NCBI GenBank assembly: GCA_030430255.1
Contig: JAUIGD010000018.1
Location: forward strand, 1 to 34,488
Direction: 5' to 3'
Length of the DNA stretch: 34,488 nt
Source: Verrucomicrobiia bacterium
GTDB taxonomy: Bacteria > Verrucomicrobiota > Verrucomicrobiia > Verrucomicrobiales > DEV007
The notes under the pieces were generated by a model that was not told where the DNA came from, ran no database searches, and saw nothing but the letters and a program-made list of their open reading frames with translations. Positions 16,052-27,240 of the stretch are shown piece by piece; position 1 is the stretch's first letter; each line of letters opens with the position of its first letter. The position numbers were made by a program, and so were the translations under genes.

Positions 16052-16143
16052 CTAGCCCGAATCGATCACCGGGCTCCGGGCTGAGGCTTGACCCCGTTGA
16101 TGCTGAGGGTGTTGGCCTCGGTGAGGGTTCGGGCGGGGTGGCC
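16052..16143 (+). repeat. Dispersed repeat element C, copy 1
   Basis: CTAGCCCGAATCGATCACCGGGCTCCGGGCTGAGGCTTGACCCCGTTGATGCTGAGGGTGTTG. Confidence 0.85.
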
Positions 16144-16273
16144 ATCCGGCTGCGGCACCGGTCCCCGCCGCCGCCTGCTCAGCGTCAAGCGCCTGGGGAA
16201 ATGGAGATCGATCCCGCCCAGTCGGATGGGTGAACCCCTTGCACATCGATCGCCGCCGTCGGATAGGTCGTGG

Positions 16274-18199
16274 ATGGATCACGACGCCGACCCGAGCGCT
16301 GCGCCTCGCGCCCGCGAGTTGGGCTGGGGGGCGCTGTCGGTCGTGGCGCTGGCACTGTGCTGGCTCGTCTTCGGAGGGAAGCCGTGGGAATCGGGATTGG
16401 CGGCTGCGCGGGAGGCGTCGATCGAGCCGAGGACGGGTCACTACTTGGTCTCAGGCTTGTGGGGGGCCGCTTGGGCTTGGCTCGGGATCGGGGGGCTGGG
16501 TTGGGTGTTGCGCCGTTGGTTGGGCCGCCCGCTGACGGCGGAGATCGGTGACCGGAGCGCGAGCTGGGCCGGGGACGAGCGGGAGAAGGGCGGGCCGGTG
16601 GGGTGGCTGCTGCTGGCCTCGACCCTGGCGGCGATGGTGCTGCTCGCACAGCACGCCGTGCCCCGCCTTGGGCACGGCCTCTGGCACGACGAAGGCAAAG
16701 GGGTGCGCAACTTCGTCGTCGGCCGCTACCAGATGAAGAAAGACGGCTCGATCGCCTACCGGCCGGTGACCTGGGCGGAAGCGGCGTGGGACTTCCGCTT
16801 CCCGAACCACATCTTCCACGGCCTGCTGGCGAAGGCGAGCCACACCCTCTGGCCGCCGGCCGAGAAGTGGGGCGGGACGAGCTATGTCAACGAGCGAGCG
16901 CTGAGGCTGCCGTCGCTGATCGGCGGCTTGGGCGGGCTCGCGGCCGCCGCCTGGATGTTGGCGGTCGCCGGGTTCCGCCGGGCGGCGTTGATCGCGCCGT
17001 GGCTGCTCGCCGCCCATCCGTGGTACCTCCGCTACGCGGCCGAGGCGAGGGGCTACAGCCTCCTCTTCTTGCTCGGTCCCGTCTGTGTCGGTATCGCCTT
17101 GCTAGCGGTGCGGCGCGGTTCTTGGGGGTGGTGGGTCGCGTTGGGGGGCTGCCAGTTCCTGTTGGTCTGGACCGTGCTGAACTCGCTCTACCTGGCCCTG
17201 GTGATCAACGCGGCGGTCGGCGTCTGGCTACTCGCCCGGCGACGCGAGGCGTCGACCCCCGTGCTCGCGCGCCGCTGGGCGGTCTCCGTGGCGGTGTCCG
17301 CGCTGTGCTGCCTGCCGGCCTTCCTGCCGGTGCTGCCGCAGTTCGCGCTCTACGTCGAGGACACCGGGGGGGACGTCGGCAAGTACGACAAGGACATGGT
17401 GCGCGACATGGCGAGCGCTTACACGGCCGGGATGCGCTACCAGGAGTGGGGCGGCGGCGGTGGTGGGCACCTGCGCCGGAACGCGGCGGGCACGGTCGCG
17501 GCGGCGCTCTCCGCCTTGGCGGCCGCGGCCGGTGCGGTCGCGCTCTGGCGGCGCGGCCTTTCGGGGCGCTTGCTGGCGGGCGTGCTGCTGCTGCCCGCGC
17601 CGCTCTTCTTCCTCCACTGCACGATCTCGAAGCCGCACATCTTCTACTGGTACTCGATCTTCGGGCTGCCCCTGTTCTGGGGGGTGGCGGCCATCGGCTG
17701 CGCCCGGGCTGGCGAGTGGATGCGCGGGAGGTGGGGGGGCGCCTTCCTCGCGGCGGTCCCCGCCGCGCTGGTTCTCCTCGGCCTGGCGGTCGGCGGGGCG
17801 GAGAAGCGCCGGTTCCTGCGCGAGCACCCGATCGAGGCGGAGCGCGAATCCGTGCTCGCCGCGCGCGGGTCCTTCGTCGACCCCCAGAGCCCCGCCTTCC
17901 GGGAGGTGACCATGCTGGGTTTCTGCCGCGAGCCGGTATTCTACGATGTTTCCAGCGTTCGCGCCACCGACCGGGAGGCGTTCTTGGCGGAGCTCAGACG
18001 CGCCGATTCCGAAGGCAAACCACTGTTCGTGAACTACGGGCCTTACAAATCCTATCAACATTTTGCCGACATCATGGAGGTCGTGGACGACCCCGCGGTG
18101 TTCGAGCTCGTCGCGGAGTTCGAGGGGGTCGATGAGGGCTCTGACCGCACGGTGAAACGGTATCTGACCGGAGGCGCCGGGCGCGCGAGGAGACGATGA
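16274..18199 (+). CDS. Polytopic membrane protein, glycosyltransferase family 39/ArnT-like
   Basis: Repeated hydrophobic helices, LWHDEGKGVRNFVVGRYQ acidic motif in the first loop, PWLLAAHPWYLRYAAEARGYSLLFLLG as in GT39/PMT-like enzymes; start at ATG 16274. Confidence 0.72.
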   Translation: MDHDADPSAAPRARELGWGALSVVALALCWLVFGGKPWESGLAAAREASIEPRTGHYLVSGLWGAAWAWLGIGGLGWVLRRWLGRPLTAEIGDRSASWAGDEREKGGPVGWLLLASTLAAMVLLAQHAVPRLGHGLWHDEGKGVRNFVVGRYQMKKDGSIAYRPVTWAEAAWDFRFPNHIFHGLLAKASHTLWPPAEKWGGTSYVNERALRLPSLIGGLGGLAAAAWMLAVAGFRRAALIAPWLLAAHPWYLRYAAEARGYSLLFLLGPVCVGIALLAVRRGSWGWWVALGGCQFLLVWTVLNSLYLALVINAAVGVWLLARRREASTPVLARRWAVSVAVSALCCLPAFLPVLPQFALYVEDTGGDVGKYDKDMVRDMASAYTAGMRYQEWGGGGGGHLRRNAAGTVAAALSALAAAAGAVALWRRGLSGRLLAGVLLLPAPLFFLHCTISKPHIFYWYSIFGLPLFWGVAAIGCARAGEWMRGRWGGAFLAAVPAALVLLGLAVGGAEKRRFLREHPIEAERESVLAARGSFVDPQSPAFREVTMLGFCREPVFYDVSSVRATDREAFLAELRRADSEGKPLFVNYGPYKSYQHFADIMEVVDDPAVFELVAEFEGVDEGSDRTVKRYLTGGAGRARRR

Positions 18200-20520: not shown

Positions 20521-20545
20521 CGTCGTATCGGCGCGTTCTGCCTTG

Positions 20546-21502
20546 ATGAATCCACCCGCTTCGCCCTCATTCACGGACGGTTTTTCCCTGGGGGCAATGC
20601 CCGGGCGGCGCTGGGATGCCGATTTGCTGCTGCGCTTGGATTGGAAGCGATTTCAAGACTTGGTGCGAGTGCTGGTGACGAAGGCGGGATACCGCGTGCG
20701 CCCGCTTTTGGTCGGCGAGGCGGGGGTCTGCCTGATGTCCCTGGTGAACGGGTCGCGGCGCCGCCCGGAGGCCTTGCTCGGCTGTGCGCCGTGGAACCAA
20801 CCCGTGGTGTCGGGCCGGCTGCTGGCGGGCTTCCATCAGGAGGTGGTCAATCGCGGCTTCCCGCGCGGCACGTTCTTTACGCCAGGGCGATTCCATAGCG
20901 ACGCCGCGGACTTCGCCGGAGTGCGCCCGATCGAGCGGGTCGACGCGCGCGATTTCGTCGCTGTCTTGGCGCGGCTGTCGGCGGCGGAGGCCGAGCACCT
21001 GCTGAAGCTGACGACCGCCGGCGAGTTCGGTGTGCCGACCTGTCCAGCCTGTTCGATCAAGCTCGCGCTCCGCGATTCGGAGATGCCGGAGGGGGCGGGG
21101 AAGCTGAAGAACCTCACCGTGCGCCGCTCGGAGACCTTCGTCGGGGATGTGCGCTGCAACCGGCTCACCATCGGCAGGGGCGCCGAGGCGCAGTTCCTGA
21201 AGGGGGTGTATGCGAACCGCTTGGTGGTGCACGGCAGGGCGATGGGGAATTTCACCTGCCGCGGTGCGGCGAAGATCGGCGTCGGCGCGTGGGTCGTCGG
21301 CTCGGTGGCGGCGCGCTCGGTCGAGCTTGAGCCCGGCGGCATCGTGGACGGAGAGATGCGGATCCTCGACGAGGTCGAGGTCCGGCCGGTGCGCGTCCCC
21401 CCCCACGAGCCGATCTGGGGCTGCCCGAACTATCCGAAATGCCGGGTCGTCCTGCCGGTGCGGAAGCTCGATGCGCCGGGCGGCCAAGCGGGGGAGGCGT
21501 AG
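20546..21502 (+). CDS. Degenerate Mrr-like domain + zinc ribbon split by a bactofilin-like beta-helix
   Basis: WKRFQDLVRVLVTKAGYRVRP...RGTFFTPGRFHSDAADFA (Mrr_cat-like); CPAC ... WGCPNYPKCR (topoisomerase-type zinc ribbon halves); LTVRRSETFVGDVRCNRLTIGRGAEAQFLKGVYANRLVVHGRAMGNFTCRGAAKIGVGAWVVGSVAARSVELEPGGIVDGEM (bactofilin-like). Confidence 0.8.
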   Translation: MNPPASPSFTDGFSLGAMPGRRWDADLLLRLDWKRFQDLVRVLVTKAGYRVRPLLVGEAGVCLMSLVNGSRRRPEALLGCAPWNQPVVSGRLLAGFHQEVVNRGFPRGTFFTPGRFHSDAADFAGVRPIERVDARDFVAVLARLSAAEAEHLLKLTTAGEFGVPTCPACSIKLALRDSEMPEGAGKLKNLTVRRSETFVGDVRCNRLTIGRGAEAQFLKGVYANRLVVHGRAMGNFTCRGAAKIGVGAWVVGSVAARSVELEPGGIVDGEMRILDEVEVRPVRVPPHEPIWGCPNYPKCRVVLPVRKLDAPGGQAGEA

Positions 21503-24800: not shown

Positions 24801-26495
24801 TCAGCGCGGCTTCCCGACCTCGGCGAAATGCGCGATCTTTTCAGCGGAAAGGGCGCGCCCGAAAAGCGCGAATTCGTCGATGCGCCCGTGGAAATGGCGG
24901 ACGGGGCGGTGTCCGCGATCATCACAGTAACCGCCGTTGCCGATCTCGGAGCGGGCGGGCGTGAGGGCGATGGCGCGGGAGGCATCCATCTTTCCTGACC
25001 ACACGGGGCTTCCGTCCAGGTAGTGCGTCGCGGTGCCCCCGGCCGCATCATAGACGGTGGCCAAGTGGTGCCACTCGCCGAGCGGGCGGTCGCCGCCGAG
25101 GATGGGGGGCGATCGGAAGATGCTCTGGTTGTTGCCATTGGACATCGTCACGCTGAGCGAAAGGCTTCCATCCGGATTCAGGAACCATTCGAAGGCGCCG
25201 GGGGCCCGTTCGTTGCTGCTGAAGAGCGAGTTGGGACGGTCGTTGGAGAGCGAGTCCGGGCGCACCCAAGTCGAGAGCGTCATCTGTTCGTAGGCGCTTT
25301 CGGTCTGGACGGTGACGCGGTCGCTGGCGCGGCTGAACTCCAGTGCCCCTTTGGAGGGCCAGCGGCCGGTCGTCCAGCGGCAGCCGACGATGCCACCGTG
25401 GGTCGCGCGGTTGAGGTAGCTGGCTTCATTGACGAGCGATCGCTCGCGCGGACCCTGTTCGTCGAAGGTGTAGAGCGCGATGAGGTCGGCATCGGATCGC
25501 AGGTCTTCGGCGAGCTGGCGCCAACGTTCGTGGCGCATGGAGGCGTCGGCGAGCGCCGTATCTTTGAGATCGGCGAAGGAGATGAACGACATGGCGTCGG
25601 CGTCGATGCGTCGGATCCCGCTGGCGCGGAGCCGAACGGCCTCGTCCGAGCTCAGTTGCCTAGTCAGCTGGGGCGTGCCGATCGCGCCGCCCTCGGTGAT
25701 GTCGAGGGAGCCGTCGAAACAGTGGATCTCGGTGACGTGGCCGTCATCGTGGATGCTGATCCCGAATTCGGAGCCGCTGTTGGCGATCTCGAACTGGGCG
25801 GTAGCGAGGGTGAACTCGCGCGTGCCGGACGGGACCTTGACGCGCATGCGCCCCTCGTGGAGGTAGCCGCTGCGGTCCGAGGTCAGTTCGAAGACGGCGG
25901 GGCTCTCGATGAGCACGCGCACGCCCGAGTAGAATTCGATTTCGGCGAGGCCGGATTCGAGCCGGAGTTCGCCGCGGTTCAGCACCCCTCCGGATTGGCC
26001 GGGGTGTTGGCCTCCCTTCCCGTAGCTGGCGCCGACGGACTCCATCAGGACGGCGACGCCGCTGTGGCCCGGAGCCAGCTCTTCGGCAACGGCCTCACCC
26101 GGGGCGAGCGGATTCTTCTTGGTCAGGAAGAAGGTCGCGCCGGCGGCGAGGATCACCGCGGCGGCGGCGGCGCCCAAGGTGAGCGGCCGCCACTTCGGGC
26201 TGAGGATCTGGCGGGTGTTTTGCCCTTCGAAGAACAGGGCGGTCGACTTGGCGATCGCGAGCGGAACCGTCTTGCTGCCGACTTCGAGTGGCGGGCGGGC
26301 AGCGACTTCGTCTTCGATGCCGGCGACGAGTTGGGAGTAATCGATGTAGAACTCACAAGCCTCGGGATCGCCGTCGAGGATGGATTCGATGCGCGCGATC
26401 TCCTGCGGGCTTGCCAGCCCGTCATGCAGTTGCGAGAGGAGCTTCTCGAGCTCCACAAAGCGTTGGTGGTGAGGTTCGTGTTGAGGCGCGCCCAT
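24801..26495 (-). CDS. FecR-domain anti-sigma-like protein with a C-terminal LamG/concanavalin-like domain
   Basis: N-terminal ELEKLLSQLHDGLASPQEIARIESILDGDPEACEFYIDYSQL, TM, FecR-like LESGLAEIEFYSGVRVLIESPAVFELTSDRSGYLHEGRMRVKVP, C-terminal LamG (MTLSTWVRPDSLSNDRPNSLFSS... RIDEFALFGRALSAEKI). Confidence 0.9.
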   Translation of the reverse strand: MGAPQHEPHHQRFVELEKLLSQLHDGLASPQEIARIESILDGDPEACEFYIDYSQLVAGIEDEVAARPPLEVGSKTVPLAIAKSTALFFEGQNTRQILSPKWRPLTLGAAAAAVILAAGATFFLTKKNPLAPGEAVAEELAPGHSGVAVLMESVGASYGKGGQHPGQSGGVLNRGELRLESGLAEIEFYSGVRVLIESPAVFELTSDRSGYLHEGRMRVKVPSGTREFTLATAQFEIANSGSEFGISIHDDGHVTEIHCFDGSLDITEGGAIGTPQLTRQLSSDEAVRLRASGIRRIDADAMSFISFADLKDTALADASMRHERWRQLAEDLRSDADLIALYTFDEQGPRERSLVNEASYLNRATHGGIVGCRWTTGRWPSKGALEFSRASDRVTVQTESAYEQMTLSTWVRPDSLSNDRPNSLFSSNERAPGAFEWFLNPDGSLSLSVTMSNGNNQSIFRSPPILGGDRPLGEWHHLATVYDAAGGTATHYLDGSPVWSGKMDASRAIALTPARSEIGNGGYCDDRGHRPVRHFHGRIDEFALFGRALSAEKIAHFAEVGKPR

Positions 26496-26537
26496 GGTTT
26501 CTGTTTCCAGTGGAGTATGGCCTGCAGGAGAGTTTTC

Positions 26538-27068
26538 TCAACCTGCGGCGCGTTCGGCAGCCAAGGTTTTTTCGATGCACTGCATGAGGTTGTGGCGGAT
26601 CCGGTACAGGGTTTGGGATACCGAACCCACGGTGCGTCCCTGTTCGGCCGCGATGTCCTGGACGGAGGCTTTGGGTTGGTAACGGGCCTCGACGAGTTTC
26701 CGGTGGTGTTCGGGAAGTTTCTTGAGGCAGCGTTGCAGGGCGCGGTTGCGGGCCAGGGCGGCATCCTCCTCGAGGCGGTCGTCACTGCGCTCGGCGAGGT
26801 AATCGAGGATGTCGTCGTCGAACACCAGCCGCTCGCGAGCCATTTTCCGGCGGAAGGCGAGCACGTGAAAGTAGGCGACCTTGCAGGCCCAGGCGTTGAA
26901 GTTCGTGCCTTCCTCGAAGGTCTCGGCCTTCTTCCACAGGGTGATGTTCGTCTCCTGGAGCAGATCGCGGGCCCGGGAGCGATCGGGGCAGAGCGTCAAG
27001 ATGTAGCCGAACACGGGCCCCTGAGCTTCGGTGAGCAGGCGCACGAACTCTTCGGAATCGGATTTCAT
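26538..27068 (-). CDS. ECF-type RNA polymerase sigma-70 factor (Rhodopirellula/Verrucomicrobium-type family)
   Basis: FVRLLTEAQGPVFGYILTLCPDRSRARDLLQETNITLWKKAETFEEGTNFNAWACKVAYFHVLAFRRK and a region-4 helix-turn-helix (VQDIAAEQGRTVGSVSQTLYRIRHNLMQCIEKTL). Confidence 0.93.
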   Translation of the reverse strand: MKSDSEEFVRLLTEAQGPVFGYILTLCPDRSRARDLLQETNITLWKKAETFEEGTNFNAWACKVAYFHVLAFRRKMARERLVFDDDILDYLAERSDDRLEEDAALARNRALQRCLKKLPEHHRKLVEARYQPKASVQDIAAEQGRTVGSVSQTLYRIRHNLMQCIEKTLAAERAAG

Positions 27069-27240
27069 GGATGGTGTGGTGGGGTTTGGATCCCGGGGGG
27101 AGCCGATCAAGATACGGCGGAAAGGCGGGAAATCTAGCAGGCGGGAGACGTGGTTTGCGGCGCCTGCCGCCCTTCCCCCTGTTTGGGCGTGAGCGACGTC
27201 TCCGTCGCGACTGGGGGGAGGGAGCGCCTCGCCGGCAAGC

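Follow-up and report, generated by a model that had tools for sequence, protein, structure and literature searches.

A bactofilin module apparently nested within the topoisomerase-type zinc ribbon of an Mrr-like protein family of Verrucomicrobiales

The DNA analysed here, referred to as the window, is a 34,488-nucleotide stretch from a Verrucomicrobiia bacterium. On its + strand, an open frame of 318 amino acids (20546..21502) begins with an ATG at 20546 and ends with the stop at 21502; homologues begin in the same region, and a TTG at 20543, one codon upstream of the ATG, is an alternative start. The frame on the strand opposite 20546-21502 is a mechanical ORF without support. The encoded protein carries an Mrr_cat domain at residues 29-140 (20630..20965; E 1.5e-6, 28.8 bits against a Pfam cut-off of 21) and a bactofilin domain matched at residues 192-271 (E 1.9e-8, 34.9 bits against a cut-off of 27.9), so that two of the three pieces named by the original prediction score above their Pfam cut-offs. 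Two short Cys-containing segments flank the latter. The first, PTCPACSIKLALRDS (residues 164-178; 21035..21079), contains C166 and C169; the second, the PIWGCPNYPKCRVVLPVR region (21410..21463), contains W291, C293 and C299. Between them lie the bactofilin beta-helix, residues 189-275 (21110..21370), and a flexible linker that joins it to the second segment (21371..21409), with low pLDDT around residues 276-286. The original prediction had placed about 115 residues of bactofilin repeats between the Cys pairs; the placement holds, but of the 123 residues from C169 to C293 only ∼85 form the beta-helix, the remainder being two linkers. NCBIfam holds no model for the 318-residue fusion, and the single protein matched nothing in the PDB by sequence; with the profile, the only PDB matches above noise were bactofilins.

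The catalytic motif of Mrr domains is PD-QxK (PMC12707154, PMC11037411). We aligned the active-site region of 40 proteins, comprising 37 fusions and three short relatives, of which 39 are matched by the Mrr_cat profile at E≤1. The Lys of QxK is missing from all 40; the window protein has Gly79-Cys80-Ala81 (20780..20788) where active-type relatives have QCK. The position of the catalytic Asp, Leu63 in the window protein (20732..20734) and the Asp of GGVD in active-type relatives, is mostly hydrophobic, with Asp gone from most of the aligned proteins, while the Trp following QxK is retained in the fusions. Relatives with an uninterrupted ribbon (L118, L119, L120, L125 and L126) read GGVD or GGID followed by QCKAW (QCKAF in L120). 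Judged from these alignments, the Mrr domain of the fusion family is catalytically dead, and the ‘DNA/nuclease-type module’ of the original prediction finds no support as an active nuclease, because the catalytic Lys has gone throughout the family. Foldseek matched the Mrr part to MspJI, AspBHI and AF1548, and likewise to RPB5, with E-values like those of the Mrr enzymes; the RPB5 superposition is poor (rmsd 14–17 Å). Many members also show a weak match to the NA-iREase1 profile, which is clearer in the short relatives L010 and L074. The window genome also encodes a second, short Mrr protein, a 124-residue frame (G000:C196:15883-16194, L082) with the intact motif GADGGLDL...VQCKRQ.

The two Cys segments were then considered as halves of one topoisomerase-type zinc ribbon. 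In the intact protein, the second half alone matches Zn_ribbon_Top1 (residues 292-305; E 1.6e-4, 21.9 bits, below the Pfam cut-off of 32) and the first half scores weakly. When residues ∼179-286 between the halves were removed in silico and the product rescored against Zn_ribbon_Top1 (PF01396), a single match spanning positions 3-36 of the 39-position profile was obtained (E 5e-7), with 29.8 bits compared with 19–22 bits for the second half alone, and still just below the cut-off of 32. The pattern C-P-x-C ... W-x-C-x(5-12)-C is kept in 38/38 aligned fusions, the halves being 118–126 residues apart, and conservation of four Cys and a Trp in every one of these proteins is far beyond chance. The second half is divergent in the fusions of Verrucomicrobiaceae, and one of them, L005, has no Top1-ribbon score even when spliced.

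An AlphaFold2 model built with 38 sequences had a mean pLDDT of 83.9; almost throughout, the Mrr and helix parts exceed 84, with most of the inserted helix at ∼94–98, and the second ribbon half lies at 57–72. In both structure models, strands at 174-176, 290-292 and 302-304 occupy the positions expected of a three-stranded ribbon. Homology and model secondary structure thus support the prediction that both Cys pairs converge on one zinc site. We infer that both linkers are flexible and long enough for the ribbon halves to meet across the short helix. The original proposal of a topoisomerase-type ribbon split by a bactofilin is supported, its halves being C166/C169 and C293/C299, which the splice test rejoins.

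The bactofilin profile matched 37 of the 40 proteins scanned at E≤1, equal to the number of fusions in that alignment. The fold of the insert is that of a bactofilin beta-helix (Foldseek to BacA 2n3d, TM 0.60 by target), comprising ∼85 residues as against ∼110 in the canonical domain. Position 267 aligns with F130 of Caulobacter crescentus BacA, the Phe of the polymer interface (PMC12448750); among 38 fusions it is Leu in 34, Met in two, Val in one and Phe in one, and so always hydrophobic. The insert profile was also compared with a second bactofilin family, which we call ZnBac, having two N-terminal zinc ribbons and a long bactofilin helix and encoded beside BacA in Verrucomicrobiales. Against ZnBac it scores 44–74 bits, in one continuous match on the C-terminal half of the helix, whereas against BacA it reaches at most 33 bits, mostly in partial matches. 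Since the insert scores better on ZnBac than on BacA, it most likely derives, by sequence, from the C-terminal half of ZnBac or of a ZnBac ancestor.

ZnBac is also present in 50 of the 59 genomes that carry a fusion. It is widespread in Verrucomicrobiales and was not found in the literature searched; its loci (L009:541-1827, L019:547-1803, L023:727-1908 and others) adjoin classical BacA, sometimes just before nadA. In parts of its helix Cys recurs every ∼17 residues (L019:547-1803, L021:199-1815), suggesting a Cys ladder on one face; the insert retains two of these positions. A scan of the assembly from which the window comes revealed no further bactofilin. That result does not make the fusion the sole bactofilin of the genome, as the assembly breaks off where bacA would be expected: the relevant contig stops 4 bp past the gene found just before bacA in G013, the genome encoding the sister of the window protein.

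A search for the same domain order in other genomes, as originally suggested, recovered the fusion from 59 of 387 sampled genomes of the order: 56 in Verrucomicrobiaceae (family f4), two in family f3, one of these cut by a contig end, plus the window's own. Further fusion records are mostly from Verrucomicrobiaceae and Prosthecobacter; two labelled Akkermansia may be mislabelled. The contig profile search used a Verrucomicrobiaceae alignment and covers close relatives. Even sampling of the class (286 genomes) and the phylum (388 genomes) turned up no full fusion outside the order. In usable close pairs, dN/dS is 0.03–0.18 for the Mrr part and the insert alike (the pair L054/L060 was left out, being misregistered by a start-site difference); both parts are under purifying selection. 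Many Verrucomicrobiaceae fusions (L005:1456-2400 and others) share an N-terminal motif, MLDPFxTLxEAGFS (residues 1-14), possibly a short interaction motif.

Five class and phylum matches confined to residues 20-187 (L118, L119, L120, L125 and L126) were examined as candidates for other ribbon insertions and rejected, being uninterrupted and of active type. These are apparently membrane-anchored Mrr plus Top1 zinc-ribbon proteins of other Verrucomicrobiota, with hydrophobic segments of transmembrane type N-terminal to Mrr, where the fusions have none. The ribbon of L118 reads TCPGCGVKM...FWGCRNYPRC without interruption; those of L120, L125 and L126 are similar, and L119 has a longer second loop. 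L125 and L126 have an additional N-terminal zinc ribbon.

A tree of the Mrr and ribbon sequence, computed without the insert, unites all fusions in one group (98/95) with an uninterrupted protein, L003 of G013, which is the sister of the window protein (99/97) and from which the bactofilin insert is absent. Two changes suffice on this tree. The simplest order would be one gain of the insert and one loss in G013; this is a preference rather than proof, given a number of long branches and an uncertain root. The spacer of L003, REVPAGPG, resembles the first linker of the fusion, RDSEMPEGAG, and this resemblance in sequence would be compatible with secondary loss of the insert. In G013 (L131:3295-4959) ZnBac is missing from its usual site, BacA being followed directly by nadA; this co-loss of insert and ZnBac is a single case. 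The existence of relatives with and without the insert makes the order of events testable.

No gene neighbour of the fusion is conserved across genera. Wider clustering of ORFs was noisy and revealed local synteny only, among close Verrucomicrobiaceae. Neighbours in the window include an ABC transporter ATPase, an RMMBL/lactamase-type hydrolase and a di-haem cytochrome c peroxidase; two ORFs of ∼700 residues (16088-18196 and 25023-27134) have no Pfam match at E≤0.001. Neither the fusion nor its sister matches a PADLOC model at E≤0.1, and none of the genes near the fusion is a defence gene, the neighbours being ordinary. The suggestion of a ‘novel sensor/defence component’ thus gained no backing from either search.

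We propose, with about even confidence, that the fusion is a nuclease-dead Mrr protein turned cytoskeletal adaptor, whose inserted module keeps it on bactofilin polymers. The likely ancestor would have resembled the membrane-anchored Mrr plus Top1-type zinc-ribbon nucleases. Its Mrr active site would have been lost, and a bactofilin module akin to the C-terminal half of ZnBac would have entered the ribbon loop, leaving both knuckles intact; the resulting fusion has been kept under purifying selection. The two knuckles may have kept a single shared zinc and may act with the Mrr fold in contacting nucleic acid, or a partner bound to nucleic acid, while the inserted beta-helix would dock on, or co-assemble with, BacA/ZnBac polymers of the same cell. 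In this way the fusion would link the bactofilin scaffold to DNA or to some other client, and localisation, once the task of the lost transmembrane anchor, may have passed to the bactofilin module. Recognition parts have been kept, cutting has been lost and a polymer module has been gained, so the simplest use of such a protein would be as a tether between a nucleic-acid-bound site and bactofilin polymers. The fullest form of the proposal, that a beta-helix placed in a nucleic-acid-binding zinc ribbon made a membrane-anchored restriction nuclease into a non-cutting DNA–bactofilin tether, its anchor exchanged for the cytoskeleton, is put forward only tentatively, and we think it somewhat more doubtful than true. 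Against an adaptor stand the lack of a conserved neighbour that would name the client, the low confidence and, in Verrucomicrobiaceae, the divergence of the second ribbon half, and an assembly for the window that shows no other bactofilin, though there the expected bacA site coincides with a contig end.

The loss of the catalytic site would also suit a scaffold in which the dead Mrr domain and the ribbon bind a protein partner, DNA is uninvolved and the fusion is simply an accessory of the bactofilin cytoskeleton. The match to RPB5 from eukaryotic RNA polymerases, with E-values comparable to those of the Mrr enzymes, and the lack of a conserved DNA-processing neighbour point the same way; the ribbon Cys and Trp are, however, kept in every member and the RPB5 alignments have the high rmsd noted above, and we regard a purely protein–protein role as unlikely, if a serious candidate. 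A DNA-associated filament, as first predicted, is possible but unproven. For the inserted helix to polymerise alone, lining up Mrr–ribbon heads along DNA, is improbable in our estimation: the position of the polymer-interface Phe stays hydrophobic and the window assembly shows no other bactofilin, but the helix is short and tied to the ribbon at both ends, most fusion genomes contain ZnBac too, and a contig end coincides with the bactofilin locus missing from the window genome. Given how short the insert is, and its apparent descent from the C-terminal half of ZnBac, docking or co-assembly on existing polymers is likelier than independent filaments.

Two further explanations have very little in their favour overall. 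A dead restriction module might detect foreign or modified DNA and signal through the cytoskeleton; it shares its fold with MspJI and AspBHI, Mrr_cat is typical of type IV restriction, and many members show the weak similarity noted above, clearer in L010 and L074, to NA-iREase1, which NACHT proteins carry as an inactive restriction domain. Set against the negative PADLOC search, the ordinary neighbours and a steady retention in Verrucomicrobiaceae that differs from the patchy pattern usual for defence genes, these similarities leave a defence sensor highly improbable. Similarly, low model confidence at the second ribbon half and its divergence in Verrucomicrobiaceae might indicate that each Cys pair forms a metal knuckle of its own, or is a relic, with the insert holding the two apart. 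That they share no ribbon is hard to credit, however, when close and distant relatives carry the same halves as one uninterrupted ribbon, splicing restores a near-full profile match, and the modelled strands fit a three-stranded ribbon.

Bactofilins organise chromosomes in Myxococcus via separate adaptors. If the adaptor reading is true, a single chain with DNA-type and bactofilin modules would provide a direct link between chromosome and cytoskeleton. The family is concentrated in Verrucomicrobiaceae, to which belongs Prosthecobacter, a stalked genus of cytoskeletal interest. The fusion also documents the insertion of a domain into a zinc ribbon that was kept intact, together with the apparent loss of a nuclease active site.

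The original statement that no protein with this architecture had been described agrees with our search of the open-access literature, in which no paper joins a bactofilin to Mrr or a zinc ribbon as an architecture; the component domains are known and their nested arrangement appears new. Mrr plus Top1-ribbon nucleases (L118, L120, L125, L126; PF04471 plus PF01396) resemble the fusion in domain order, Mrr fold and TCPxC...WGCxNYPxC ribbon, but have active-type GGVD/QCK motifs, an N-terminal hydrophobic anchor and no insert, whereas the fusion is catalytically dead, lacks the anchor and bears a bactofilin in the ribbon. Bactofilins proper (BacA, PF04519; 2n3d, 6ria), which form non-polar filaments, have in common with the insert the right-handed beta-helix repeat, with a significant profile and fold match; the insert is shorter, lies inside another domain instead of standing alone and lacks the usual free tails, and any polymerisation by it is putative. 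The C-terminal half of the ZnBac helix is closest to the insert, including conserved Cys positions, but ZnBac has no Mrr domain, and its zinc ribbons, which differ in type, stand ahead of the helix. RPB5 and NA-iREase1, the latter inactive according to Pfam, have, like the fusion, an endonuclease-like fold without known cleavage, but lack a bactofilin and occur in unrelated contexts. A functional analogy, and only that, is offered by PadC of Myxococcus xanthus, an adaptor that links ParA to BacNOP polymers and whose ParB-like nuclease domain is of a type described as having no nuclease activity (PMC5703909). There, too, an adaptor with a nuclease-like domain joins DNA-segregation machinery to bactofilin polymers; PadC, however, has a ParB-like domain, is itself no bactofilin and binds the tail of BacP.
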